Positions 8,087 through 21,419 of a DNA stretch of 64,000 bases are shown piece by piece (positions within the stretch are counted from its first letter, which is position 1; each line of letters opens with the position of its first letter). The notes under the pieces were generated by a model. It did no database searches. It was given only the letters and a program-made list of their open reading frames with translations, and was not told where the DNA came from. A program made the translations under genes and the position numbers. The DNA is from Oleomonas cavernae (lineage in GTDB: Bacteria > Pseudomonadota > Alphaproteobacteria > Zavarziniales > Zavarziniaceae), in assembly GCF_003590945.1 (NCBI RefSeq), contig NZ_QYUK01000011.1, positions 1,640,001 through 1,704,000 of the forward strand, read 5' to 3'.

Positions 8087-9493
8087 ATGGCGGCACAAGA
8101 CCGGAACAATGGCGGGATTGAGGGCCTGTTCGATGTCGCCGTGGTCGGCGGCGGCGTCGTGGGCTGCGCCATCGCCCGGGAATTCACCCTGGCCGGCGCC
8201 CGCACCATCCTGCTCGAACAAGGGCCGGACATCCTCAGCGGCGCCTCCAAGGCCAACAGCGCGATCCTGCACACGGGCTTCGACGCCCCGGTCGGCTCGC
8301 TGGAGCAGCGGCTGGTGGCCGAAAGCCATGCGCTCTATTGCAAGCTCCACGACCGGCTGAACCTGCCGCTGCTCGAGACCGGTGCCCTGCTGGTCGCCTG
8401 GAGCGAGGCGGAGGAGGCCCGCCTGCCCGAGATCATCGCCGACGCCCACCGCAACGGCGTGGGCGACGTGGAACCGGTCACGGCGGCCCAGGCCCGCGCG
8501 CGGGTGCCGGCCCTGGGGCCGCTGGCCCGGGCGGGCGTGGTCATCCCGCGCGAATATGTCATCGACCCCTGGACCGCCCCCCTCGCCTACCTGAGCCAGG
8601 CGGTGCGCAACGGTGCCGTCGCCCTGTTCAGGGCGGCGGTGGAGAGCGGTGACTTCGACGGCAGCGCATGGCACCTGACCACGCCGCGCGGCACGGTGCA
8701 TGCCGCCCATGTCATCAATGCCGCGGGCCTGCATGGCGATCAGCTCGACCAGGCCCTGCTGGGCGCCAGCGCCTTCACCATCCGCCCGCGCAAGGGCCAG
8801 TTCGTGGTCTTCGACAAGGCGGCCGCGCGCCTCGTCGACACCATCCTGCTGCCCGTGCCCACGACCCGCACCAAGGGCGTGGTGGTCTGCCCGACCATCT
8901 TCGGCAATGTCCTGGTCGGCCCGACGGCGGAGGAGCAGGACAGCCGGACCGATACCTCGGTGAAGCAGGCGACGCTGGAAGCCCTGAAAGCCGAAGCCGC
9001 GCGCCTCGTCCCGGCCCTGGCCCAGGTGCCGGTGACCGCCGTCTATGCCGGCCTGCGCCCGGCCAGCGAGGAGAAGGATTACCGCATCCTGGCGACGCCG
9101 GCGCGTCACTGGATCACCGTGGGCGGCATCCGCTCCACCGGCCTGACCGGGGCGCTGGGCATCGCCCGCCATGTCCTGGGCCTCTATGGCAACCGCCATG
9201 CCCCGCTCCCCGATCCGGCCTGGCAGCAGATGCCCAACCTGGCCGAATACCGGCCGCGCGACTGGTCCTCCCCCGGCCACGGCGAGATCGTCTGCCATTG
9301 CGAGCTGGTGACGCGGCGCGAGATCGAGGCGGCCCTGCTGGGCGACCTGCCGGCCGCCGACCTTGCCGGCGTGAAGCGCCGCACCCGGGCCATGATGGGC
9401 CGCTGCCAGGGCTTCTACTGCGCGGCCCGGATCAGCGAACTGGTCGACGGCGCCATCGACCCGCCATTCGCCGTGGGGCCGGCCCATGGCTGA
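8087..9493 (+). CDS. FAD-dependent glycerol-3-phosphate-type dehydrogenase with C-terminal [2Fe-2S] BFD-like domain
   Basis: 468 aa. Residues 15-45 hold the FAD dinucleotide loop [34 protein letters not shown] and ITVGGIRSTGLTGALGIA are typical of the GlpA/GlpD DAO fold. The last 80 residues add a bacterioferritin-associated-ferredoxin-like cluster domain with CHCE near residue 403 and GRCQGFYC near residue 443, giving four cysteines. This matches GlpA-type anaerobic glycerol-3-phosphate dehydrogenases and relatives. Its stop overlaps the start of a second FAD protein (9486), and a glycerol-kinase-like gene follows, so the three likely act on one polyol phosphate. Start ATG 8087. Confidence 0.85.
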   Translation: MAAQDRNNGGIEGLFDVAVVGGGVVGCAIAREFTLAGARTILLEQGPDILSGASKANSAILHTGFDAPVGSLEQRLVAESHALYCKLHDRLNLPLLETGALLVAWSEAEEARLPEIIADAHRNGVGDVEPVTAAQARARVPALGPLARAGVVIPREYVIDPWTAPLAYLSQAVRNGAVALFRAAVESGDFDGSAWHLTTPRGTVHAAHVINAAGLHGDQLDQALLGASAFTIRPRKGQFVVFDKAAARLVDTILLPVPTTRTKGVVVCPTIFGNVLVGPTAEEQDSRTDTSVKQATLEALKAEAARLVPALAQVPVTAVYAGLRPASEEKDYRILATPARHWITVGGIRSTGLTGALGIARHVLGLYGNRHAPLPDPAWQQMPNLAEYRPRDWSSPGHGEIVCHCELVTRREIEAALLGDLPAADLAGVKRRTRAMMGRCQGFYCAARISELVDGAIDPPFAVGPAHG

Positions 9494-10712
9494 GACCTGT
9501 GATGTTGCCATCGTCGGCGGCGGCCCCGCCGGCCTTGCCGCCGCCACCAGCCTGAAGCGGCAGGGCCTCACCCGCGTCATCGTGCTGGAACGCGAGGCAG
9601 AGGCAGGCGGCATCCCGCGCCATTGCAGCCATTCACCCTTCGGCCTGCGCGAATTCCACCGCCTTCTGTCGGGCCCCGCCTATGCCCGCACCCTGGTTCA
9701 GCGCGCCATCGCCGCGGGTGTCGAGATCCGCACCGGGGCGACAGTCACCGCGCTGGAACCGGGCGGCCTGCTTGATGTCACCAGCGACGGCGGCCCCTAC
9801 CCGCTGGCCGCGCAGCGGGTGCTGCTGGCAACCGGCGTGCGGGAGAGCCCGCGCGCCGCCCGCCTCGTCTCGGGCGAGCGGCCCCTGGGCATCGTCACCA
9901 CCGGGGCCTTGCAGGCCATGGTGCATCTGAAGAATCGCGCGCCGTTCCGCCGGCCGGTGATCGTCGGCACCGAACTGGTCTCCTTCTCGGCCCTGCTGAC
10001 CTGCCGCAATGCCGATATCCATCCCATCGCCATGATCGAGGCCGGCCCGCGCACCACCGCGCGCCGGCCTTCCGGCCTGCTGCCCTGGCTGCTGGGCGTG
10101 CCGCTCCACCACCACGCCCGCATCACCGGCATCAGCGGCAAGCCCCGGGTGGAACAGGTCGAGATCACCGCGGGCGACAAGGTCTTCACCCTCGACTGCG
10201 ACGGCATCCTGTTCACCGGCCGCTTCGTACCCGAGGCCAGCCTGGCCCGCATGGGCCATCTTTCCGTGGATCCGGGCACCGGTGGGCCGCAGGTCGACCA
10301 GTTCGGCCGCGGCACCGATCCCGCCTATTATGCCGCCGGCAACCTGCTGCGCCCGGTCGAGACCGGCGGCTGGAGCTGGCGCGAAGGGGTCGCGGCGGCC
10401 GGCTGGATCGCCGCCGATCTCGCCGGCCGGCTGCCGCCCGCCGGGGACGAGATCGCCGTCACGGCCGCCGCTCCGCTCAAATATGTCATGCCCCAGCGCC
10501 TCTGCGCCGGTGCGGGCATGACGCACCTCCAGCTTCGCGTCGAGGGGCCGGTGCGTGGCCTGCTGGTGTTGCGGGACGGTGCGCGTGTCTTGTGGTCGGG
10601 CAAGATCGACGCCCTGCCCGAACGCCGCCTGCTGGTGCCGGTGCCGCCGCCCGCCGCCATCGGCGCGGCCCGCTCCCTGGAACTCGCTCTCATCAATGGT
10701 GCTTCCCCATGA
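9486..10712 (+). CDS. NAD(P)/FAD-dependent oxidoreductase, partner of the GlpA-type dehydrogenase
   Basis: 408 aa. The N terminus has an FAD loop VAIVGGGPAGLAAATSL (residues 7-23), GGIPRHCSHSPFG near residue 41, the VLLATGVRE signature near residue 115, and GLLPWLLGVPLHHHARITGI in the middle. This is the small FAD protein that in many bacteria sits with a GlpA-like dehydrogenase and a kinase, and probably passes its electrons onward. It overlaps the upstream gene by 8 bases and shares ATGA with the downstream kinase, so all three are translationally coupled. There is no membrane segment. Confidence 0.82.
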   Translation: MAETCDVAIVGGGPAGLAAATSLKRQGLTRVIVLEREAEAGGIPRHCSHSPFGLREFHRLLSGPAYARTLVQRAIAAGVEIRTGATVTALEPGGLLDVTSDGGPYPLAAQRVLLATGVRESPRAARLVSGERPLGIVTTGALQAMVHLKNRAPFRRPVIVGTELVSFSALLTCRNADIHPIAMIEAGPRTTARRPSGLLPWLLGVPLHHHARITGISGKPRVEQVEITAGDKVFTLDCDGILFTGRFVPEASLARMGHLSVDPGTGGPQVDQFGRGTDPAYYAAGNLLRPVETGGWSWREGVAAAGWIAADLAGRLPPAGDEIAVTAAAPLKYVMPQRLCAGAGMTHLQLRVEGPVRGLLVLRDGARVLWSGKIDALPERRLLVPVPPPAAIGAARSLELALINGASP

Positions 10713-12148
10713 CCGGACGTATCGCCGCGATCGACCAAGGCACCACCAGCACCCGCGTGCTGGTCGCCGAGGGGGCACAGGCCCGGATCGCGCTGAGCCT
10801 GCCCCACGCGCAGCACTACCCTCAATCGGGCTGGGTCGAACATGATCCCGAGGAGTTGCTCGCCAATGTCCAGGCCTGCCTGGCCGCGGCGGGCGAGATC
10901 GAGGCCGTGGGCATCGACAACCAGGGCGAAAGCTGCCTCGCCTGGGACGCCCGCACCGGGCGCCCGATCAGCCCGGTCATCGTCTGGCAGGACAACCGCA
11001 CTAGTGCCGAACTGGATCAGTTGAAGGCCGACGGCGCCGGGGAATTGCCGCTGGCCCACGCCGGCCTGCCGATGGATCCCTATTTCTCGGCCTCGAAGCT
11101 CGCCTGGATCGTGCGCAACGTGCCCGAGGCGAAAGAACTGCTGGCGGAAGGCCGGTTGCGCCTGGGCACCACCGACGCCTTCTTCCTCGACCGCCTCGCC
11201 GGGCGTTACGTAACCGATGTCACCACCGCCTCGCGCACCTCGCTGATGAACATCGAGTCCGGTGAATGGGATCCGGCCCTGTGCGCCCTGTTCGGCGTGC
11301 CGATCGAGGCCCTGCCCCGGATCGTGCCGACGGTGGGCGATTTCGGCAGCGTGAAACTCAACGGCCGCGACGTGCCGATCGTCGCCAGCATGGTCGACCA
11401 GCAGGCCGGTCTCTATGGCCACGGCTGCCGCGAGACCGGCGATGCCAAGATCACCTTCGGCACCGGGGCCTTCGTCCTGGCCGTGACCGGCAAGGAAATC
11501 CGCCGGGCACCGGGCGACGGCCTGCTGCCCACCGTTGCCTGGGGCCGCGACAGCGACGGCATCACCTATGCGCTCGACGGCGGCGTCTATACCGCCGGGG
11601 CGGCGGTCGACTGGGTGAAGCGCCTGGGCCTGTTCGACGATTTCGCCGCCGTCGACCATTTCGAGGGGCCGTCGGCGATCGACCGCGGCCTGGTCTTCGT
11701 GCCCGCCCTCTCAGGCCTCGCCTGTCCCCACTGGCACCGCGACAGTGCCGCCGCCTGGTTCGGCCTGACCCTGGACACCGGCCCGCTGGACATGGTGCGC
11801 GCCGCCCTGGAGGGCATCGCCCTGCGCACGGCGGAGGTGGTCACCGCGATGAGCGAGCATGTCGCCCTCGCCCAGGCCATCTCGATCGACGGCGGCATGT
11901 CGACGAACGGCTACTTCTGCCAGTTCCTGGCCAATGTCATGGGCCGCGCCGTGCTCGCCCGCGACGGCGGCGAGCGCACCGCCATCGGCACCGCCTTGTT
12001 CGCCGGCGCCGACGCCGCCCTCGCCTTCGCCGACCACGGCGCCGACCGCCGCTTCGAGCCGCAAGGCGATCCCGCCGGCGCCCGCGCCCGCTTTAGCGAA
12101 GCCATCGACTTCGTCCGCCGCTGGGGCCGCGAACCGCCACCGTGCTAG
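10709..12148 (+). CDS. FGGY-family carbohydrate kinase, glycerol-kinase-like
   Basis: 479 aa, slightly shorter than typical glycerol kinase. The N-terminal IAAIDQGTTSTRVLVAE and GWVEHDPEEL, the middle ASMVDQQAGLYGHG, and FGTGAFVL are glycerol-kinase motifs. Substrate residues corresponding to E. coli Glu84, Trp103, Tyr135 and Asp245 appear to be kept (NQGES, VIVWQDNRT, MDPYFSASKL, VDQQA), but the Arg83 position is Gly (NQGES instead of NQRET). That arginine touches glycerol in the E. coli enzyme, so another polyol could be the substrate. It is coupled to two FAD enzymes upstream, which suggests a phosphorylate-then-oxidise pathway. The name glpK is withheld for this reason. Confidence 0.82.
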   Translation: MTGRIAAIDQGTTSTRVLVAEGAQARIALSLPHAQHYPQSGWVEHDPEELLANVQACLAAAGEIEAVGIDNQGESCLAWDARTGRPISPVIVWQDNRTSAELDQLKADGAGELPLAHAGLPMDPYFSASKLAWIVRNVPEAKELLAEGRLRLGTTDAFFLDRLAGRYVTDVTTASRTSLMNIESGEWDPALCALFGVPIEALPRIVPTVGDFGSVKLNGRDVPIVASMVDQQAGLYGHGCRETGDAKITFGTGAFVLAVTGKEIRRAPGDGLLPTVAWGRDSDGITYALDGGVYTAGAAVDWVKRLGLFDDFAAVDHFEGPSAIDRGLVFVPALSGLACPHWHRDSAAAWFGLTLDTGPLDMVRAALEGIALRTAEVVTAMSEHVALAQAISIDGGMSTNGYFCQFLANVMGRAVLARDGGERTAIGTALFAGADAALAFADHGADRRFEPQGDPAGARARFSEAIDFVRRWGREPPPC

Positions 12149-12172
12149 GGCGATCGACACACGCGTTGTAAC

Positions 12173-12252
12173 CGTCATTCCGGCGAAGGCCGGAATCCAT
12201 TCTGGGGAAGCGCGCGACGTCTCAATGGATTCCGGCCTTCGCCGGAATGACG
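12173..12252. repeat. Palindromic intergenic repeat, family B, copy 1
   Basis: CGTCATTCCGGCGAAGGCCGGAATCC and its inverse flank a short loop containing GCGCGCGACGTCTC. Copy 2 at 61330-61409 matches almost base for base including the loop; copy 3 at 56945-57038 has GGGATCC in the arms and a different loop. It follows the kinase stop and may end that transcript. Confidence 0.88.
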
Positions 12253-12324
12253 ATTGAGCGTGCCGGAATCGCGCCGCACCCGCATCATGGCAATGATCTG
12301 CCTCATAGTCCGCCAGGAGTTGCC

Positions 12325-12723
12325 ATGTTTGCCGTCGAGGTTCGCGACCATGTCATGATCGCCCACAGCCTGCCCTCGCCGGTGTTCGGGCCGGCCCAGG
12401 GCATGCATGGGGCGACCTATGTGGTCGATGCGGCGTTCTTTGCCCCGGCGCTGGACGGTGACGGGCTGGTGGTCGATATCGGCCTGGCGACCGAGGCGCT
12501 GGGCCGGGTGCTGGGCCCCCTGAAATACCAGAACCTCGATGCCCTGCCCGCCTTCAAGGGCAAGATCACGACGACCGAATTCCTGGCCAAGGCGATCGCC
12601 GACGGCCTGATTGCCGAGATCGCGGCCGGCAGCCTGGGCGCCGGCGGCGGGCGCCTGGCGCGGCTGCGGGTGCAGCTTCATGAAAGCCACGTCGCCCGCG
12701 CCTGGTACGAGACCGACCTGTGA
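12325..12723 (+). CDS. PTPS/QueD-fold protein with altered active site
   Basis: 132 aa, 6-pyruvoyl-tetrahydropterin synthase / 6-carboxy-tetrahydropterin synthase fold: VEVRDHVMIAHSLP at the start, MHGATYVVDAAF near residue 28, VVDIG near residue 50, KITTTEFLAKAIADGL near 78, and LHESHVARAWYE at the end. Canonical members bind zinc with three histidines (AH, and HGHxY) and use a cysteine just before HGH. Here HGHxY is MHGATY, so the third His is gone, and no Cys precedes it (GPAQGM). The reaction is therefore probably not that of PTPS or QueD. ATG 12325 has a good Shine-Dalgarno (AGGAG). Its stop overlaps the next gene, a glycosyltransferase. Confidence 0.8.
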   Translation: MFAVEVRDHVMIAHSLPSPVFGPAQGMHGATYVVDAAFFAPALDGDGLVVDIGLATEALGRVLGPLKYQNLDALPAFKGKITTTEFLAKAIADGLIAEIAAGSLGAGGGRLARLRVQLHESHVARAWYETDL

Positions 12724-13766
12724 CCGCGCCGATCGTCTTTGCCATCCCCGGCGCGATCGACCAGCCGACCGGCGGCTATGGTTACGATCGCCGCATGATC
12801 GCGGAATGGCAGGCGGCGGGGCGGACGGTAAGGCACCTGGCCCTGGGGGACAGTTTTCCCCTGGCCACGGCCGGCGACATTGCCGCCGCCGATGCGGCCC
12901 TCGCCGGCCTTGCCCCCGGCACCACGGTACTGGTCGACGGCCTGGCCTTCAGCGCCGTGGGCAGCCCGATCGGCCGCCACGCCCGCCGGCTCGACCTGGT
13001 GGCGCTGATCCATCATCCCCTGTCGCTGGAAACCGGCCTGGCCCCCGATATCGCCGCCGCCTTGCGGGAAAGCGAGCTGGCAGCCCTGGCGCAGGCCCGG
13101 GCGATCGTGGCAACCAGCCACGAGACGGCACGCGGCCTGATCGCCGATTTCGCGGTCGACCCCGGGCGCCTGAGCGTCGCCGTGCCGGGTACCGATACCC
13201 GCGGCCGGGCGCCGGCGCGGGGTAACCCGCCGCTTCTCCTCTCGATCGCCACGGTGATCCCGCGCAAGGGCCACGACCTGCTGGTCGCCGCCCTCGCCCG
13301 CCTGGCCGAGCGGCCCTGGACCTGCCGCATCGTCGGCGACCATGACCGCGACCCGGCCTGGACCGAGAAGATCAGGGCGGCCATCGCCGCGGCCGGGCTT
13401 GGCGCGCGCATCACCCTGGCCGGCATCACCCGCGACCCGGCGGCGGAATTGCAGGCGGCCGACATCTTCGTGCTGCCGTCGCGCTACGAGGGCTATGGCA
13501 TGGCCTTCGCCGAGGCGCTGGCGAGCGGCCTGCCGGTCGTCGCCTGCCGGGCAGGGGCAGTGCCCGAAGTGGTGCCGGACAGCGCCGGGATCCTGGTGCC
13601 GGTCGACGATGCCGGCGCCCTGGCCGCGGCACTGGCCTTGCTGCTCGACGACCCGGCGCGGCGCCGGCGTTTGAGCGACGGCGCCTATGCCGCCGGCCAG
13701 CGCCTGCCCCGCTGGGCCGACAGCGCCCGGACCATCGCCGCCGTGCTCGACCGGGTGGGGCCTTGA
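12720..13766 (+). CDS. Glycosyltransferase family 4 protein
   Basis: 348 aa GT-B glycosyltransferase. The C-terminal half has the donor-binding pattern FVLPSRYEGYGMAFAEALASGLPVVA (residues about 251-276, E-x7-E), preceded by LLSIATVIPRKGHDLLVAALA near residue 175. The N-terminal half has GGYGYDRRMIAEW and HHPLSLETG. It starts at GTG 12720 within the stop region of the PTPS-like gene and its own stop shares TTGA with the methyltransferase start. In GT4 enzymes the donor is usually an activated hexose; the acceptor here is unknown, and the neighbours suggest a pterin- or polyol-like small molecule or lipid. Confidence 0.88.
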   Translation: MTAPIVFAIPGAIDQPTGGYGYDRRMIAEWQAAGRTVRHLALGDSFPLATAGDIAAADAALAGLAPGTTVLVDGLAFSAVGSPIGRHARRLDLVALIHHPLSLETGLAPDIAAALRESELAALAQARAIVATSHETARGLIADFAVDPGRLSVAVPGTDTRGRAPARGNPPLLLSIATVIPRKGHDLLVAALARLAERPWTCRIVGDHDRDPAWTEKIRAAIAAAGLGARITLAGITRDPAAELQAADIFVLPSRYEGYGMAFAEALASGLPVVACRAGAVPEVVPDSAGILVPVDDAGALAAALALLLDDPARRRRLSDGAYAAGQRLPRWADSARTIAAVLDRVGP

Positions 13767-14548
13767 GCGGTTTCGACATCGCCTGGCTCGACCTGCGGGC
13801 CCCGGCCGACAGGGCGGCCCGCGATGCCGGCCTGCTGCGCCGGGCGGCGGCGCGGCTGGGCCAGGTCGAGCAGCCGCTGGTCATCGACCTGGGCAGCGGC
13901 ACCGGGGCGAGCTTCCGGGCGCTGGCGCCGCTGCTCGGGCACACCGCCCGCTGGCGCCTGGTCGACAAGGATCCGCTGCTGCTGGCGGAAGCGGCCCGCC
14001 GCTGCCTAGGCGTGGAAACCCTGGCCTTCGACCTGGGCCAGGGCCTGCCGCCCATCGGTGGATCGCACCTGATTACGGCATCGGCGCTGGTCGACCTGGT
14101 CTCGGCCGCCTGGCTCCAGGCCCTCGCCACGGCCGTGACCAGGACCGGGGCCGCCCTGTGGGCGTCGCTGTCCTATGACGGGCGCCTGTCCTGGACGCCC
14201 GCGCACTCGCTCGACGAGGCGGTTCACGCGGCCTTCGACAGCCACCAGCATCGCGACAAGGGCTTCGGCCCGGCGCTAGGCCCCGACGGGGTGAGCCATC
14301 TAGAGGAGCGGCTGGTCCAGGCCGGCTACCAGGTCGCCACCGCCGACAGCGCCTGGCGGCTGGGGATCGCCGACGCCACACTGACCCTGGCGCTGATCGA
14401 GGGCATCGCTCACGCCGTCCAGGAAACCTGCCGAATTACCGATGCCGACCTGGCGGCCTGGCGGCGCTTCCGCCGCGCGGCCGCTGCCACCGGCACGGCC
14501 CTGGTCGGCCACCGCGACCTGCTCGCCTATTCGGCAACCATCGTATAG
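13763..14548 (+). CDS. Class I SAM-dependent methyltransferase
   Basis: 261 aa. The SAM-binding loop LVIDLGSGTGASFRALAPLL lies at about residues 36-55, followed by WRLVDKDPLLLAEA (acidic strand-2 residue) and HLITASALVDLVS near residue 103. The start is TTG 13763, overlapping the glycosyltransferase stop (TTGA). Its 3' end overlaps the end of the minus-strand reductase gene by 22 bases. It is the third gene of a tightly coupled set with the PTPS-like and GT4 genes. Confidence 0.85.
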   Translation: MSGFDIAWLDLRAPADRAARDAGLLRRAAARLGQVEQPLVIDLGSGTGASFRALAPLLGHTARWRLVDKDPLLLAEAARRCLGVETLAFDLGQGLPPIGGSHLITASALVDLVSAAWLQALATAVTRTGAALWASLSYDGRLSWTPAHSLDEAVHAAFDSHQHRDKGFGPALGPDGVSHLEERLVQAGYQVATADSAWRLGIADATLTLALIEGIAHAVQETCRITDADLAAWRRFRRAAAATGTALVGHRDLLAYSATIV

Positions 14549-15300
14549 CGCTCGCGCGGGCGGAAGACGCAGTCGAAGACGACGTCGCTGCCCAGGTCGT
14601 AGGCGGTGACCGTCGGCCGGACACAGTCGTCGAGCGCATCCACCGGCGGCAGGGCCAGGCCCGTCGGCCCGGCGCCGATGATCAGGGGTGCCACCGCGAT
14701 GTGCAGCCGGTCGATCAGATTGGCCGAACAGAAATGGCCGAGCGTGGTCGCCCCGCCTTCGACCAGCAGGCGGGTCAGGCCCAAGGCGGCCAGGGCGGCA
14801 ACGATCCGGTGCGGGGCGATGATGTCGCCGTCGAGCCCCAGGCGGATCACCTCGACACCTTCGGGCCGCGGCCGGTCGACCGCCTGGATGACGATGCGCC
14901 GGGCGCCGTCGTCATGGAACAGGCGCCGGTCGTCGGGGATGCGGCCGCGCGGATCGATCAGCACCCGGGCCGGGTTGGGGCCCTTGGCATGGCGGACGTT
15001 GAGTTGCGGATTGTCGTGCACCGCCGTCTTGGCGCCGACGATCACCGCGTCGACCAGGGCGCGCAGGCGGTGCAGGTGCACCAGCCCGTCCCGGCCCGAG
15101 ATGTTCTGGGCATCGCCCGCCAGGGTGGCGATCCGCCCGTCCAGCGACTGGCCCACCTGGCCGATCACCAGCGCGGTGCCCGGCGGCTGGGCGATCGGGC
15201 CGTAAAGCTCGTGGCCGGCCGCGGCCATTGCGGCGCCCGGCAGGTGGGCCCGTGCCACCAACCTGTCCCAGACCTCCGGTCGGACTGCGCCGCGATTCAT
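14527..15300 (-). CDS. RibD C-terminal-type reductase (dihydrofolate reductase-like family)
   Basis: 257 aa. It contains only the reductase half of RibD: GQVGQSLDGRIATLAGDAQNISG (near residue 46), HLHRLRALVDAVIVGAKTAVHDNPQLNVR (residues about 74-102), RVLIDPRGRIP, and LLVEGGATTLGHF near residue 173. The deaminase domain with its zinc site is absent. RibD reductases turn a ribosylamino-pyrimidine into the ribityl form with NADPH. A stand-alone copy next to a PTPS-like protein suggests a pteridine- or pyrimidine-type product rather than riboflavin. Start ATG 15300. Confidence 0.85.
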   Translation of the reverse strand: MNRGAVRPEVWDRLVARAHLPGAAMAAAGHELYGPIAQPPGTALVIGQVGQSLDGRIATLAGDAQNISGRDGLVHLHRLRALVDAVIVGAKTAVHDNPQLNVRHAKGPNPARVLIDPRGRIPDDRRLFHDDGARRIVIQAVDRPRPEGVEVIRLGLDGDIIAPHRIVAALAALGLTRLLVEGGATTLGHFCSANLIDRLHIAVAPLIIGAGPTGLALPPVDALDDCVRPTVTAYDLGSDVVFDCVFRPRERYTMVAE

Positions 15301-15361
15301 CTAACCTGCCTCCATCCCTTGAATCCTATATCACGCGACCCGGGCAACCTAGGCAAGCCGC

Positions 15362-16975
15362 TCACGGGGCGGAACGCGATACCGCCGCCATGCCGCCTGC
15401 CGGGGTGAAGGCCGCCAGCAGGCGCCCCCGCAGGGCCTCCATCGGCCAGACCGGGGCGTCGGCCGCCGGCACCATGCCGGGGGTGAAGCCCCAGCCCTCC
15501 AGCCGCGCGAGGACGGCCGGGTCGCCGGCGATGACATGCACCGGCACCTGGTGCCCGCCCCCCTCGCCCGAGACCAGGGCGATCGGCTCGTGGTCGCCGA
15601 GCGCGATCACCACCAGGTCCTTGTCGCCGCGCGTCGCGATATAGCTGGCCAGCACCGACAGGCTGTACTCGATCGAGCGGCGGTATTGGTCCCGCACCCG
15701 GCCGGGATCGCGCCACACCACGTCGGGCGGATCGCCGGCCTGGGCGAAGCCGTCGAAGACACGGCCGTCGCCGACCCGGTCCCAGGGGATCAAGGCGGGC
15801 AGCGGCGTCCAGGGCAGGTGGCTGGAGAGCAGCGCCATCTCGACCATCAGCGGCCGCCGTCCGGGCGTGCGGCGCTCCAGGCGATCGAAGGCTTCCAGGG
15901 TGAACTGGTCGGGCATGGTCACCCAGTCGAACGGCAGCCCGCGATAGCCCAGGTCCTGCGCCGCATAGACCTGGTCATAGCCAAAGAAGCCGGCCTCGGG
16001 CCAGGCCTTGGTAATCCCGGGCATGACCGCCACGGTGCGCCAGCCTGCCCGTTGGAAATCATGGGTCAGGGTCGAGCGGTCCGAGACCACCAGCGTATCG
16101 TAGCGGCGCTGATTGTCGATGCGCAGGCCCGCTGCCAGGGTGCTGTGGGCCAGCCAGCTCTGCCCGCCGAAGGTGGGCGAGACCAGGAAGCCCGAGCGGG
16201 CGGCAAAGCCCTTGGCCGCAAGGGTCCGGTCGAAGCCGGCCAGGGTCGCCCGCACGCCGTCGGCATACCAGGGATTGTCGAGCGCCGAGCGGCCGTAGGA
16301 TTCGACGAAGACGACGAGCACATCCTTGCCGGCCAGGCCCGACAGCAATTGATCGGGCGGCACCGCGCGGAAAGGATCGACCGCGGCCTCGGCCCCGAAG
16401 GCGACAAGATCGTCGATGCTGGCCCAGGTCGTCTCCGCCTCGGTGAGTGCCAGGCGGCTGGTGCCCGCGGCGACCAGCTGTTGCGACGGCCACGCCATCA
16501 GCCCGGCACCGGCGACCGTCAGCGCGGCCGCGGCGAGCCCGGTGACCCGGCGGTACCCGGCGACCAGGCGGGCCAGGACGACCATGGACTTGACCAGCAC
16601 GAACGCCAGCAGGCCCAAGGCGGCCACGGTCCCGGCGGCGGCAGCAAGCGCAACCGGCCAACCGGCGGCGGCGGCAAAAACCACCCAGCCAGGGCCCAGC
16701 AGATGGCTGTCGAGGACAAGATTGAACGGCCGGCCCAGGAACTGCTGGGCGCCCATATCGGCAAATTTCAGCGTCACCAGCAAGGCCAGGAGCAGACCCG
16801 CGGCAAAGGCGGTGAACCGCCAGGGCAACAGGGCGAACAGCAGGACCAGCACCGGCAATTCCAATGGCACCTGCAGCAGAATCTGCGGCTGCACCTGGTC
16901 CCAGCGATCGGGCAGGACCAGCGCCAGGAAGACCACGAGGCCAGCCAGGAGCGGTGCCCAGATCGCCCTTTTCAT
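15362..16975 (-). CDS. Membrane-anchored sulfatase-like (alkaline phosphatase superfamily) protein
   Basis: 537 aa. The first 190 residues hold about five hydrophobic segments (LLAGLVVFLALVLP, VLVLLFALLPW, FAAGLLLALLVTL, and more). The rest is a sulfatase-fold domain that begins DVLVVFVESYGRSALDN near residue 222. It has the ordering of lipoteichoic-acid synthase or phosphoglycerol transferase proteins, with GQSWLAHSTLAAG, and DLVVIALGDHEPI near residue 461 supplying the Asp-His metal pair. Such enzymes transfer or cleave phospho-groups on the outer face of the membrane. Its start overlaps the end of the FkbM gene by 4 bases. Confidence 0.8.
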   Translation of the reverse strand: MKRAIWAPLLAGLVVFLALVLPDRWDQVQPQILLQVPLELPVLVLLFALLPWRFTAFAAGLLLALLVTLKFADMGAQQFLGRPFNLVLDSHLLGPGWVVFAAAAGWPVALAAAAGTVAALGLLAFVLVKSMVVLARLVAGYRRVTGLAAAALTVAGAGLMAWPSQQLVAAGTSRLALTEAETTWASIDDLVAFGAEAAVDPFRAVPPDQLLSGLAGKDVLVVFVESYGRSALDNPWYADGVRATLAGFDRTLAAKGFAARSGFLVSPTFGGQSWLAHSTLAAGLRIDNQRRYDTLVVSDRSTLTHDFQRAGWRTVAVMPGITKAWPEAGFFGYDQVYAAQDLGYRGLPFDWVTMPDQFTLEAFDRLERRTPGRRPLMVEMALLSSHLPWTPLPALIPWDRVGDGRVFDGFAQAGDPPDVVWRDPGRVRDQYRRSIEYSLSVLASYIATRGDKDLVVIALGDHEPIALVSGEGGGHQVPVHVIAGDPAVLARLEGWGFTPGMVPAADAPVWPMEALRGRLLAAFTPAGGMAAVSRSAP

Positions 16976-17715
16976 GATGCCTCCAGCCGGGCGTAGAGGT
17001 CGCCGTGGCGCGCCGAAGCCGGCAGGCTGCGCAACGCCAGGCGCATAGCCCTGCCGTCCACCCAGTCGCCCCTGGCAAACTGCTGCCCCTCGCCGTCGAC
17101 ATGGTTGAAGCGATAGGACCCCAGGCCTTCCAGCCGCGCGATACAGGCGATGGCCAGATCGATCGCCGGGACCAGATACTCGAAGGCGATCAGCGGCAGC
17201 GGCTGGGACAGGCCGGCCAGAATGGCGGCCTCCATGCCTTCGACATCGATCTTCACGAACTGCGGGCGGCCGTACGTGGCCACCAGGCGATCCAGCGTCG
17301 TAACCTCGACCATTATCCGGCGATCCCAGCGGACGTGGCGAAAACCGTCACTGGAGCCAACGGCCGCGATCCAGCCCGGCGCCAGCGACGAGACGGTGGG
17401 ATGGCGACTGGAGACGGCAAGCTCCAGACTGCCCATGGCAGCCCCGACCGCGCTCTGCAACAAGGTCACCCCATTCCCCCTCAAGCTCCGCTTGAGGAAA
17501 CGGAACAGCAGGGGGTTGGGTTCCAGGGCCACCACCCGGGCGCCGGCGGCCAGCAGCGCCCGGCTGCGATTGCCGACATGGGCGCCGATATCGAAGGCCA
17601 GGTCGCCCGGTGCCAGCAGCCCGCGATAGAAGCGGCCCAGCGCCCGCTGCCGCCAGGGCCGGCCGTAGTAGATGGCGAGCGAACGGGCCAGGCCCAGGGC
17701 CTGGGCGCTATCCAT
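16972..17715 (-). CDS. FkbM-family SAM-dependent methyltransferase
   Basis: 247 aa. FkbM features are LAFDIGAHVGNRSRALLAAGARVVALEPNP (residues about 38-67), VEVTTLDRLVATYG near residue 136 and FVKIDVEGMEAAILAGL near residue 153. These enzymes O-methylate sugars or polyketides. The gene overlaps CDP-alcohol phosphatidyltransferase upstream (8 bases) and the sulfatase-like gene downstream (4 bases), so all are co-translated. Methylation of the same glycolipid or small molecule built by the neighbours is inferred. Confidence 0.87.
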   Translation of the reverse strand: MDSAQALGLARSLAIYYGRPWRQRALGRFYRGLLAPGDLAFDIGAHVGNRSRALLAAGARVVALEPNPLLFRFLKRSLRGNGVTLLQSAVGAAMGSLELAVSSRHPTVSSLAPGWIAAVGSSDGFRHVRWDRRIMVEVTTLDRLVATYGRPQFVKIDVEGMEAAILAGLSQPLPLIAFEYLVPAIDLAIACIARLEGLGSYRFNHVDGEGQQFARGDWVDGRAMRLALRSLPASARHGDLYARLEAS

Positions 17716-18439
17716 GGCGCAGCAGCCAGGCGGTATCGACCGTGAAGGAATAGACCAGCAGCGCCAGCGCGCCGGCCGCGATCGCGCTTGTCACCGGGGG
17801 CGCCAGCAGCGGCGGCAGGATCACGATCAGGGCCAGGATCTGCACCACGCAGACCAGCTTGCGCCGGAACGAGGGCGGCAACGGTGCGTTCAGTGCCGGC
17901 ACCGCCAGGCCGGCCAGCACGAACAGATAGCGCAGCAGGCCCGCCAGCAGGATCCACGGCCCCGCCTTGCCCGACAAGGCGGCCAGCACGGCGAGCACCA
18001 CGATCAGCAGGGCGTCGATCTCCATGTCGAAGCGCGCGCCGAAAGCGGTCGCCATGCCCTGGCGGCGCGCGATCCAGCCATCGACCCCGTCCAGGGCCAG
18101 GGCGATGCTGGCCAGCGCCACAGCCACCCAGGCCAGCGCCGGCGCGTCGGCGACGACAAATCCGGCCAGGACGGCAACCATTGCGCCCCGCACCAGGGTG
18201 ACGGCATTGGCCAGGCCGAAACGCTGGCCCCCGAGAAAGCGCAAGCCATCGAAGACGGCGATGCCGATCGCGCCATAGGTTGCCAAGGCCAGCGCGTAAT
18301 AGGACAGGCTCAAGCCGAAGCCGAGCCCCAGCGCCAGCAGGGCCGACACCAACCCCGCCCCCACCAGGGCAAAGACGCCCAGCACCTGCCGGCGCAGGGC
18401 ATGGGCCACGACGGGCGGGGGCCGCCGGCGGGCGGTCAT
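17708..18439 (-). CDS. CDP-alcohol phosphatidyltransferase family protein
   Basis: 243 aa from ATG 18439 (MTARRRPPP). Multi-pass membrane protein with the CDP-OH-P signature starting DGVDGWIARR near residue 123 and ending ARFDMEID, that is D..DG..AR, a gap, G...D...D. The final Asp is the catalytic residue in this family, which moves a phosphatidyl or other phospho-alcohol group from CDP to a second alcohol. A longer start at 18463 adds only eight residues. It overlaps the MDR gene by 4 bases. The alcohol acceptor is unknown. Confidence 0.87.
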   Translation of the reverse strand: MTARRRPPPVVAHALRRQVLGVFALVGAGLVSALLALGLGFGLSLSYYALALATYGAIGIAVFDGLRFLGGQRFGLANAVTLVRGAMVAVLAGFVVADAPALAWVAVALASIALALDGVDGWIARRQGMATAFGARFDMEIDALLIVVLAVLAALSGKAGPWILLAGLLRYLFVLAGLAVPALNAPLPPSFRRKLVCVVQILALIVILPPLLAPPVTSAIAAGALALLVYSFTVDTAWLLRHG

Positions 18440-19408
18440 GCGGGATAACGGATGCGGTGGCACAGGGTCGCCCGGTCGGCCAGCACGCGCGCGTAATCAT
18501 CGGCGATCCGGGCAAAGTCGCTCTCGCCCGAAATCAGCAGGTCCAGCCGGGGATCGCGCAACAGGTCCAATGCCAGCGCCAGGCGCTGGCGATGGCTGAC
18601 CCGCGACCGCTTGGCCGGCGCGACATGGCCGACCTGGGAACTTTTCAAGGTCAGGCGCCGGCTGTGGAAGGCGCCGCCCAGGGCCATGCTGACCGGCCGG
18701 TCGCCGTACCAGCTCGCCTCGACCACGGTGGCCTCGAAACCGGCAAGCTCCAGCGCCAGGGCCAGCCCGGCCTCGCTGGCGCTGGTGTGAACGACCACGT
18801 CACAGTCGGCCGGCAGTTCGCCCCGGGCAGGGCAAAGCCAAAGCCCAGTGCCGCCGCCAAGGATCCCCGCGACGGCTCGAGATCGATCAGGGTGACCTCG
18901 GTCCCCGGCATCCGCGCCGCCGCCCAAGCGACCAGCAGGCCCAGCACGCCGCCGCCCACCACCGCGACCCTGTCCCCGGGCCGATGCCGGCATCCCAGAC
19001 GACGTTCAGCGCGGTTTCGGCATTGGCGCCCAAGACGGCGCGTTCCGGCGGCACCCCGCCCGGCAGGGGCACCACCATCGCCGCCGGCACGACGAAACGG
19101 TCCTGGTGCGGGTGCAGGCAGAACACCGTCCGCCCGCGCAGGGCCGCCGGCCCGGCCTCGACCGTGCCCACACTCTGATAGCCGTATTTGACCGGCAGGG
19201 TGAATTCACCCGCCTGGAACGGGGCGCGCATCCGCTGATGCTCGCTGGCCGGCACCCGGCCGGCCAGCACCAGCGCCTCGGTCCCCCGGCTGATGCCGGA
19301 GGCGAGCGCGCGCACCAGCACCTGGTCGGGCCCCGGTGGCGGCAGGGTTTCCGCGCGCCGCTCGACGACGCCGGGGGCGACGATCCACAGGGCGCTCGCC
19401 GCGACCAT
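18436..19408 (-). pseudogene. Zinc-less medium-chain dehydrogenase (BchC-like SRGTE type), two frameshifts
   Basis: Reads from ATG 19408 ([13 protein letters not shown]). The protein has [14 protein letters not shown] near residue 36, where zinc alcohol dehydrogenases carry a catalytic Cys, and no structural four-cysteine lobe, so it belongs to the zinc-independent MDR group with BchC-like wording. Two frame breaks exist: at CCCC 18974-18977 (GIGPG then D-R-V-A-V-V-G-G-G restored by one base) and at CCCC 18821-18824 (GFALPG then ELPADCD). Restoring one base at each gives a full protein of about 324 aa. The cluster around it is intact, so sequence error is likely. Its role is probably an oxidoreductase step in the pterin-like locus. 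Confidence 0.75.
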
Positions 19409-19409
19409 G

Positions 19410-19946
19410 TCAGAGGATGCGGTACAAGGTAGCGTCGCGCTTGATGAGGTGATGCCGCACGACACCGGCCATGTGGGCCAGGAACAGCAGCAGGATCAGC
19501 CAGCCGACGACGATATGCCCGCCCTTGAGGTAGGGCGCCAGGCCGGGCGCGGCCCCCAGCGGCGACGGCACGGGCACGACGCCGAACCACGACAGGGGAA
19601 AGCCATAGGCATTGGTCATCAGGAAACCCAGCACCGGCTGCAGGATCAGGCAGGCATAGAGCGCACGGTGAACGATCTCGCTCGCCCGCCGCTCGAAGGG
19701 CGACAGCCAGGGTTCGGGCGGCGCCGGGTGGCGCAGCCGGACGGCCAGGCGCGCCAGCATCACCCACAGGATCAGGAAGCCGAAGGACTCGTGGATCAGG
19801 TAGAAGCCGCCCTGGAAATCCTTGGCGACGAACTTGATCAGGGCGCCGACGGGAAACACCACCAGCACCAGCAAGGCGACGATCCAGTGAAAGATCCGCA
19901 CCATGGGTGCGTGACGCTGTGCCGGCGCAAGCCATGTATCGGTCAT
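19410..19946 (-). CDS. Cytochrome b561 family protein
   Basis: 178 aa with four hydrophobic segments. Haem-ligand histidines are visible in [12 protein letters not shown] (residue 20 region), [14 protein letters not shown] (about 53), [19 protein letters not shown] (about 95) and [16 protein letters not shown] (about 159). Bacterial b561 proteins move electrons between the quinone pool and periplasmic partners. ATG 19946 follows a GGGAG Shine-Dalgarno. It is the first gene of the minus-strand series that runs through the dehydrogenase at 18436, so it may supply or accept electrons for that pathway, but b561 genes are also often free-standing. Confidence 0.88.
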
Positions 19947-20034: not shown

Positions 20035-20364
20035 ATGCCCAAACCCAACGTCATCCCGATCAAAACGGCATGGAGCAATGTCGCCCTGGTCTGCGGCAAA
20101 TGCCGCAAGAAACTGAAAGGCGGTTTCGGCCCCAAGGGTAAGGAACGGCTGAGCAAGGCGCTGATACGTGATCTCGGGGCAGGCAAGGGGCGGCGCGCCG
20201 GGCTGTGCATAGTAGAGACCCGCCGCATGGACATTTGCCCCAAGTGCGGCGTCACCATCGCCAACGGCCATCAGCCGGAGCAGTTGCTGGTCATTGCCGA
20301 AGGCACCCCGGTCGACCAGATTGCCGCCGCCCCGGGCCTGCCGGCCCTCGCGCAAAGGGCTTAG
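20035..20364 (+). CDS. Small cysteine-rich protein, probably a thioredoxin-like [2Fe-2S] ferredoxin
   Basis: 109 aa. Cysteine pairs occur in LVCGKCRKKLKGGFG (about residues 19-23) and DICPKCGV (about 71-74), with another Cys in GLCIVETRR. The layout C..C, basic KGK stretch, then C, CPK resembles the thioredoxin-fold [2Fe-2S] family, though a plain zinc ribbon is possible. Start ATG 20035; the region before it is shared with the divergent cytochrome b561 gene. Function unknown. Confidence 0.6.
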   Translation: MPKPNVIPIKTAWSNVALVCGKCRKKLKGGFGPKGKERLSKALIRDLGAGKGRRAGLCIVETRRMDICPKCGVTIANGHQPEQLLVIAEGTPVDQIAAAPGLPALAQRA

Positions 20365-21209
20365 CGGGTCTCACGACGCAGTTTGCCAATTGTCCATGCA
20401 ACCTCCTCCAATATAGCCTCCCAATGAGGAAGCGCATCGTGCGGAGTTTCGATCGAATAAGTAATGTAACCTCCAGAATATCCATTGATCAAGCACGCGT
20501 GCATTTTCTTGTGAAAGAAAATAGTACACTCGGCTCTTACCGAGTCACCATTTCGCGATCTTCCGTAGCAATCTATAAAAACGATTCTTGGATCCGAATC
20601 TCTGCTATCGTTAGCATCTTCGATTTCTTTTAGTGTTAGGTCACACAAATTATTTCTTGAATACAACCCGCTCTGTGATCTCGGAAGATCAAGATAGTCT
20701 GGATTCCAGGCGCGCTCGTTCCACCCGAGCGTGGTTGCATTCATGCTGATGTAAGCAATTCGCGTTTGCTTACCAGGATCGTAGTCTATGCGACCGCTTC
20801 GGATCGCTTCGTCCCATGGAATTTCCAAGCTTATCGAGTTGCCGGCTCGGTAGGCACCGTTCTCGAACCTGGCCTTGGAATCGAAGTAAGAGAGATAACG
20901 CAGCGGGATATTGAAGTGCTGCGCAGGAATCTCTGCCTTTTTGTGCCCGATGCTCATCGGAATGACGAAATCGTGCAACGGACTGCCGGGGTCGTCTGCG
21001 AGCCTAAGCTTGATCGCGCATTTTATCATTTTCGGGGTGAGCGAAAACGCCCCATCCTGCGGCGGCTGGCTGGCGCGCGTTTCCAGGCCAGCCAGGTCGG
21101 CTGTACTGCACGGATTGATGGCCCGGCTCGGTCTCGACGTCGGGCAATAGACGATCGCCGCCAACATCACGCCAACGGCAAACGCGGTCGTGCCAGTCGA
21201 TCTACCCAT
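20361..21209 (-). CDS. Putative exported protein of unknown function, low-GC
   Basis: 282 aa from ATG 21209 (MGRSTGTTAFAVGVMLAAIVYC), with a signal-peptide-like hydrophobic N terminus. The mature part has several cysteines (INPCSTADLAG, MIKCAIKL, NNLCDLTL, FIDCYGRS, RAECTIFF, HACLINGY) that could form disulfides in the periplasm. The gene is clearly richer in A and T than its neighbours, with many TTT, AAT and GAA codons, which suggests recent acquisition. No family is recognised. Its end overlaps the end of the ferredoxin-like gene by 4 bases. Confidence 0.6.
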   Translation of the reverse strand: MGRSTGTTAFAVGVMLAAIVYCPTSRPSRAINPCSTADLAGLETRASQPPQDGAFSLTPKMIKCAIKLRLADDPGSPLHDFVIPMSIGHKKAEIPAQHFNIPLRYLSYFDSKARFENGAYRAGNSISLEIPWDEAIRSGRIDYDPGKQTRIAYISMNATTLGWNERAWNPDYLDLPRSQSGLYSRNNLCDLTLKEIEDANDSRDSDPRIVFIDCYGRSRNGDSVRAECTIFFHKKMHACLINGYSGGYITYSIETPHDALPHWEAILEEVAWTIGKLRRETR

Positions 21210-21419
21210 TTCCGCTCCGGGCGAGCGAGAACCACATTTGGTGGAACGATCAGGGCCAACAATAGCACGGCCGGCTCGGCCAGATAGGTGTGGCCGCTGT
21301 GACAGATCGCGCATTCCGGGTGCCGTCGGCTAACGGCCAAGCCCCACCGCCACAAACATCCAAGGCCCCAAAGATCACTTGAGATTGCCGGGGCAATGCC
21401 CCGCCTTGCCAGAGGATGC

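Follow-up and report, generated by a model that had tools for sequence, protein, structure and literature searches.

The genes at positions 12,325 to 19,946 of a 64,000-nucleotide stretch of Oleomonas cavernae DNA (contig NZ_QYUK01000011.1; the whole stretch is called the window here) include those for a PTPS-like protein, a GT4 glycosyltransferase, a RibD_C reductase and enzymes of a putative lipid module. Our data support that this gene set is one functional unit that has spread horizontally among unrelated bacteria. We consider the chances about even that the cluster serves to make a GTP-derived, glycosylated and methylated aminopyrimidine or pterin that retains guanine's 2-amino-4-oxo ring, bears a ribityl chain and is linked to lipid in about half of its carriers. 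A preliminary description of the window had proposed that one set of genes makes a glycosylated, methylated pteridine- or polyol-containing metabolite or lipid. The part of that proposal concerning a single set stood, as the unit recurs and the lipid module co-occurs with it even when unlinked; the product itself is inferred, and judged from sequence a glycosylated, methylated product of the pteridine or ribityl type, often lipid-linked, is the best supported candidate.

That the genes belong together is indicated by 124 PTPS neighbourhoods taken from genomes of the class, 80 named loci of species genomes and plasmid records. The genes found near PTPS in these loci encoded an MDR dehydrogenase (120 loci), a methyltransferase (112), GT4 (111), RibD_C (90), the GTP cyclohydrolase II RibA (51), a CDP-alcohol phosphotransferase (CDP-OH-P, 46), cytochrome b561 (43), an OpgH-like protein (41), an FkbM methyltransferase (37), an LtaS-like protein (32), YceI (16) and creatininase (9). 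The order MDR-PTPS-(GT4)-methyltransferase was kept in 96 of the 124, and MDR was directly upstream of PTPS in 109; in the window, MDR sits in the opposite operon. The preliminary description had made its case depend on the plus- and minus-strand sets being neighbours elsewhere, and in most of the 124 loci, Actinomycetota included, MDR, PTPS, GT4 and methyltransferase do adjoin RibD_C. Among 385 genomes of the class, PTPS relatives were present in 45, from 34 genera, and MDR relatives (counted at E ≤ 1e-40) were present in the identical 45. We counted at least 588 genome stretches with a gene for a PTPS relative. The hosts were Alpha-, Beta- and Gammaproteobacteria and Actinomycetota, including Rhizobiales, Rhodobacterales, Azospirillum, Xanthomonas, Burkholderiaceae, Thiodictyon, Peteryoungia, Streptomyces and Microbacterium, and on a Streptomyces plasmid the set was present with RibA and creatininase.

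Recurrence of the same set in 124 neighbourhoods takes it beyond chance. It is extremely improbable that these are unrelated metabolic genes brought together by chance or transfer, each at work in a known pathway (queuosine, riboflavin, phospholipid). Every fold in the set is common, and the window genome has its own RibD and another, higher-scoring PTPS-family protein, both outside the cluster. Against this stand the identical genome sets of PTPS and MDR and the lack of QueD residues in the PTPS-like protein, and we rejected the explanation because it is contradicted by the unlinked co-occurrence of the lipid module and by a gene order conserved in two phyla. Three genomes of only 1.4–1.6 Mb (L070, L072 and L074) retain MDR, PTPS, GT4, methyltransferase and RibD_C, and the product would thus be worth its cost in streamlined cells. 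Two Streptomyces plasmids (L161, 10001-15652; L166, 10001-12552) carry a member of the PTPS subfamily without the cluster, near genes for MEKHLA-domain, cupin and MBL-fold proteins, which is possibly a second setting for the subfamily.

The PTPS-like protein (132 amino acids, plus strand, 12325..12723; PF01242, E = 7e-18, 65 bits) matched SCO6650 of Streptomyces coelicolor (PDB 3d7j) over its whole length with E = 5e-61 and belongs to the SCO6650 subfamily. SCO6650 itself is known by structure only and has no pathway assigned; Spoonamore et al. in 2008 reportedly found it to be without zinc, catalytic triad and PTPS activity, with a pterin-like site kept and its function unassigned. The HGH zinc motif was HGA (HGAT) in all 27 aligned members, so that one zinc histidine is lost; the histidine of AHS and the first histidine of the HGH motif were retained. 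Alignment to 1b66 showed the catalytic triad to be replaced, the cysteine by alanine, the aspartate mostly by asparagine, lysine or alanine, and the histidine mostly by tyrosine. T82–T84 was nearly invariant and E120 invariant, and we take this Thr-Thr and Glu to be the pterin-anchoring residues. By its sequence, then, the protein appears to retain the pterin anchor but no longer to have the zinc and triad chemistry. With all three catalytic residues and a zinc ligand exchanged, an assumption of PTPS/QueD chemistry is not supported, and synthesis of queuosine or tetrahydrobiopterin (BH4) was rejected because the catalytic residues are lost. The PTPS-I to III groups are HGH-based (PMC5041015), and the protein falls outside all three (COG0720). 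Its putative role is to bind or cyclise a pterin or aminopyrimidine intermediate.

The RibD_C reductase (257 amino acids, minus strand, 14527..15300; PF01872, E = 5e-36, 125 bits) stands alone, with no N-terminal deaminase domain in the Pfam comparison. Its top two PDB matches (6p8c and 2azn) are archaeal-type reductases, with dihydrofolate reductase (DHFR) among the weak matches, and it scored 98.5 bits against TIGR01508, whose cut-off is 186.45. Archaeal-type reductases act on a ring that still bears the 2-amino group. The substrate we propose was chosen mainly because the type of RibD_C and the pterin-type anchor of the PTPS-like protein both fit such a ring. The resemblance to the archaeal and fungal riboflavin branch (ArfC/RIB7) lies in a RibD_C reductase that stands alone and would leave the 2-amino group in place; the difference is that here the reductase is an extra paralogue, located beside glycosyl- and methyltransferases in a genome with its own RibD elsewhere. 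RibA copies within the cluster retain the tyrosine before QEGR, as would befit a GTP cyclohydrolase II that releases formate. In the window genome the related RibA is outside the cluster, at G000:C11:3896329, and we rejected it as a cluster-specific marker there, its homologues in cluster-less congeners being 85–86% identical. A third GTP cyclohydrolase II-like gene of the window genome (G000:C8:652857-653318, L170) is distant from the others (76 bits).

Two further core genes would account for decoration of the ring. The GT4 glycosyltransferase (348 amino acids, plus strand, 12720..13766; PF00534, E = 9e-32, 110 bits) has PDB relatives that include MshA and the PimA/PimB types, and these relatives take polyol phosphates, sugar phosphates or their lipids as acceptors. 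One pteridine glycosyltransferase has been assigned to a group-1/AviGT4-like family (PMC5683033), a likeness that we counted in favor of a glycosylated pterin. The core methyltransferase (class I, S-adenosylmethionine-dependent, 261 amino acids, plus strand, 13763..14548) matched Pfam weakly (Methyltransf_25); its class I fold was predicted with confidence (AlphaFold model, pLDDT 96.6), and Foldseek matched the model to methyltransferases.

About half of the carriers, among them the window genome, have the lipid module. Its CDP-OH-P enzyme (251 amino acids, minus strand, 17708..18463, possibly starting at the ATG at 18439; PF01066, E = 4e-17) has a complete D..DG..AR........G...D...D motif in which all residues are invariant or nearly so. 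The protein described earlier as sulfatase-like (537 amino acids, minus strand, 15362..16975) had no match in Pfam or NCBIfam. Its predicted structure (pLDDT 93.4) was matched by Foldseek to LtaP (1.4e-9) and also to MCR-1; residues E225, S273, D461 and H462 were invariant, with serine instead of threonine at the expected nucleophile position. The model predicts a membrane head-group transferase of the LtaS/EptA kind. It resembles LtaS, LtaP, EptA (MCR) and GacH in predicted fold and in invariant Glu, Ser, His and Asp-His, and differs from them in its serine at the nucleophile position, in having no family match, and in its predicted donor, the lipid product of the CDP-OH-P enzyme that co-occurs with it. 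The FkbM-family methyltransferase (247 amino acids, minus strand, 16972..17715; TIGR01444, E = 1e-24) is fused in a single reading frame with CDP-OH-P in L071 (6562-8022) and L076 (6700-8157), which suggests that these two enzymes act in succession.

Both lipid enzymes were largely confined to genomes with the core. Close CDP-OH-P relatives occurred in 24 genomes, 23 of them PTPS carriers, and LtaS-like relatives in 25 of 376 genomes, again 23 of them carriers, in 17 of which the gene was unlinked to the cluster. With linked cases removed, LtaS-like relatives were present in 17/39 carriers versus 2/331 other genomes (Fisher p 9e-17) and CDP-OH-P relatives in 6/28 versus 1/340 (p 8e-7), the relatedness of genomes being ignored here and in the next test. 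Because the association holds with linked cases removed, neighbourhood alone does not explain it. The two enzymes were also associated with each other (Fisher p 3e-26), and both were present in 23 of the 26 genomes having either. One exception genome (G132) is only 74% complete. LtaS-type enzymes take phospholipid head groups, and with this co-occurrence the simplest reading of CDP-OH-P and the LtaS-like protein is as a donor-maker and donor-user pair. An LPG-synthase-TM membrane protein was encoded near 26 of the 52 loci with the lipid module and near 1 of the 78 without it.

These associations bear on whether the product is a soluble pterin glycoside only, cyanopterin-like and derived from dihydroneopterin-type pterins, with RibD_C reducing dihydropterins and the lipid module forming a separate envelope system that shares the same hosts. 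We regard this as possible but unlikely. About half of the carriers do lack the lipid module, RibD_C has a DHFR-like fold, and phototrophs are known to have both pterin glycosides and GT4-like pteridine glycosyltransferases. On the other side, the lipid module is hardly ever present where the core is missing (2/331 and 1/340, unlinked), distances among LtaS-like proteins correlate with those of core proteins at 0.67–0.83, and the matches of RibD_C to ribosylaminopyrimidine reductases are far stronger than those to DHFR.

A decoration of envelope glycans or glycolipids without any pterin seems improbable to us. It would require that the PTPS-like protein and RibD_C had been co-opted for sugar chemistry, with a polyol-phosphate glycolipid or a periplasmic glucan as the target. 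GT4, FkbM, CDP-OH-P and the LtaS-like protein are envelope enzyme types, and an OpgH/MdoH-type glucosyltransferase (mdoH in one record) lies beside 41 of the 124 loci. This explanation is opposed by the conserved pterin anchor, by the extra in-cluster RibA of many genomes and the creatininase of some, and by the distribution of OpgH, which is weakly correlated with the core and anti-correlated with the lipid module (2/52 loci with the module versus 40/78 without). That anti-correlation led us to reject OpgH as an obligate partner. In many lineages without an adjacent lipid module, the MdoH/OpgH-type gene is divergent to MDR (e.g., L163, 7079-8881).

For a GTP-derived, decorated pterin or aminopyrimidine, we propose the following pathway, in which all substrates and the order of steps are inferred. 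GTP would be opened by GTP cyclohydrolase II, either the housekeeping enzyme or an in-cluster RibA. The stand-alone RibD_C would then, like its archaeal and fungal counterparts, reduce the ribosylamino to a ribitylamino compound with no deamination. The PTPS-fold protein would bind the ring and assist ring formation or present the intermediate, with the MDR enzyme performing a redox step, after which GT4 would glycosylate and the class I methyltransferase would methylate the product. In about half of the carriers, the window included, CDP-OH-P would attach the compound to a phospholipid through its polyol or sugar end. The LtaS-like enzyme would transfer this head group on the membrane's outer face, assisted by FkbM and, in many other carriers, by the LPG-synthase-TM protein. 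The genes, their co-inheritance, the residues lost and kept, and the predicted folds of two of the enzymes are the parts of this scheme that the analysis showed. Its furthest extension is a phospholipid with a glycosylated pterin or ribityl-aminopyrimidine head group that the LtaS-like enzyme moves to an envelope acceptor, giving a lipid-anchored, redox- or light-active extracytoplasmic pterin. We hold this form to be possible but unlikely, and to our knowledge no such class of molecule is known.

Several points weigh against the proposed pathway. The lipid module is missing in about half of the carriers of the class and may be a separate, optional system, and the Fisher p-values for it take no account of shared descent. 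RibD_C varies widely, with 29–53% identity to that of the window, and its substrate could be a different one. RibA relatives are present in 155 of the 385 genomes and so have no cluster specificity, and for this reason it is RibD_C and the PTPS fold that carry the argument for a GTP origin. The frameshifted MDR gene described below may mean that the pathway is decaying in the window strain. The product and substrates proposed here are predictions from sequence, and the product is unproven.

The MDR gene (minus strand, about 18436..19408) had been described as though intact. In the window genome it is broken by two frameshifts, each due to the loss of a single base from a G-run (near 18974-18977 and near 18821-18824), such that three reading frames are needed to follow it; the first piece is 61% identical to an intact homologue. 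Homologues elsewhere are intact, unlike the window copy, which suggests sequencing (long-read) errors or recent decay. All other cluster genes are open. We rejected an identification of MDR as BchC, since the part of the broken gene that we scored, its N-terminal piece, gave 26.9 bits against a TIGR01202 cut-off of 291.25.

Other features of the locus agreed largely with the preliminary description, including the gene families, for which Pfam or NCBIfam matches or predicted folds were concordant. The two gene sets converge tail to tail at ~14,530, where the methyltransferase and RibD_C genes overlap by 22 bp. The three plus-strand genes are joined by 4-bp overlaps as stated (PTPS/GT4 and GT4/methyltransferase). 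On the minus strand the order is b561, MDR, CDP-OH-P, FkbM, LtaS-like and RibD_C. The 4–8-base overlaps claimed for this set were confirmed for LtaS-like/FkbM (4 bp) and FkbM/CDP-OH-P (8 bp), that of CDP-OH-P with MDR is 4 bp only if CDP-OH-P starts at the ATG at 18439, and a 61-bp gap separates RibD_C from the LtaS-like gene. The b561-like gene (minus strand, 19410..19946; PF01292, E = 2e-25) is a doubtful member: it is near 43 of the 124 loci, and its pairwise-distance correlation with the core is only 0.13–0.23, indicating weak co-evolution.

Upstream of the cluster is an operon for glycerol-3-phosphate oxidase, an oxidoreductase and glycerol kinase (8129-12130) that is syntenic with the congener G004 at 73% DNA identity. 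This likeness stops just before the cluster, and PTPS was absent from all congeners searched; the cluster is, therefore, a segment that was either acquired or differentially lost. The interval from the glycerol kinase gene to PTPS contains an inverted repeat of REP-like type at 12172-12255 (CGTCATTCCGGCGAAGGCCGGAATCCA with its complement). Beyond the cluster, a minus-strand open reading frame of 317 amino acids (20361-21314) without a Pfam match lies in a low-GC patch (0.607). A search for anti-phage defence genes gave no relevant match.

In the searchable papers we found none on SCO6650, on this combination of genes, or on bacterial gene clusters for pterin glycosides, in line with the earlier statement that no characterised pathway has this mix. 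Pteridine glycosides come closest among known products, and a lipid-linked form would be a new kind. Cyanopterin, BH4-glucoside and the biopterin-N-acetylglucosamine of Chlorobium are made by dedicated pteridine glycosyltransferases, and roles in UV-A protection and phototaxis have been proposed for such compounds (PMC3546692, PMC5683033). Several named hosts of the cluster are phototrophs or surface dwellers, which we note as a lead only. The shared trait would be a glycosylated pterin; those systems rely on GTP cyclohydrolase I together with active pterin enzymes, whereas the cluster combines a catalytically altered PTPS with a RibD_C reductase, MDR and a lipid module. Among its recurrent neighbours, which include GT4, we recognised no GTP cyclohydrolase I or pterin reductase, a housekeeping supply being outside the scope of that comparison. 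The periplasmic pterins of Agrobacterium (PruA/PruR/DcpA) have been drawn with an optional methyl group and an unknown side chain, their export route also being unknown (PMC13259868). None of the genes of that system was seen in the cluster, and any link is likewise a lead only.

If our proposal is correct, hundreds of bacterial genomes hold a so far undescribed pathway that starts from GTP and yields a pterin or ribityl-pyrimidine, decorated and possibly bound to the membrane. Its genes are currently annotated as those of queuosine, riboflavin and phospholipid enzymes. The pathway would provide a setting for a PTPS-fold protein whose structure had no function, would tie pterins to the cell envelope, and would bear on how pterins reach the periplasm (PMC13259868).

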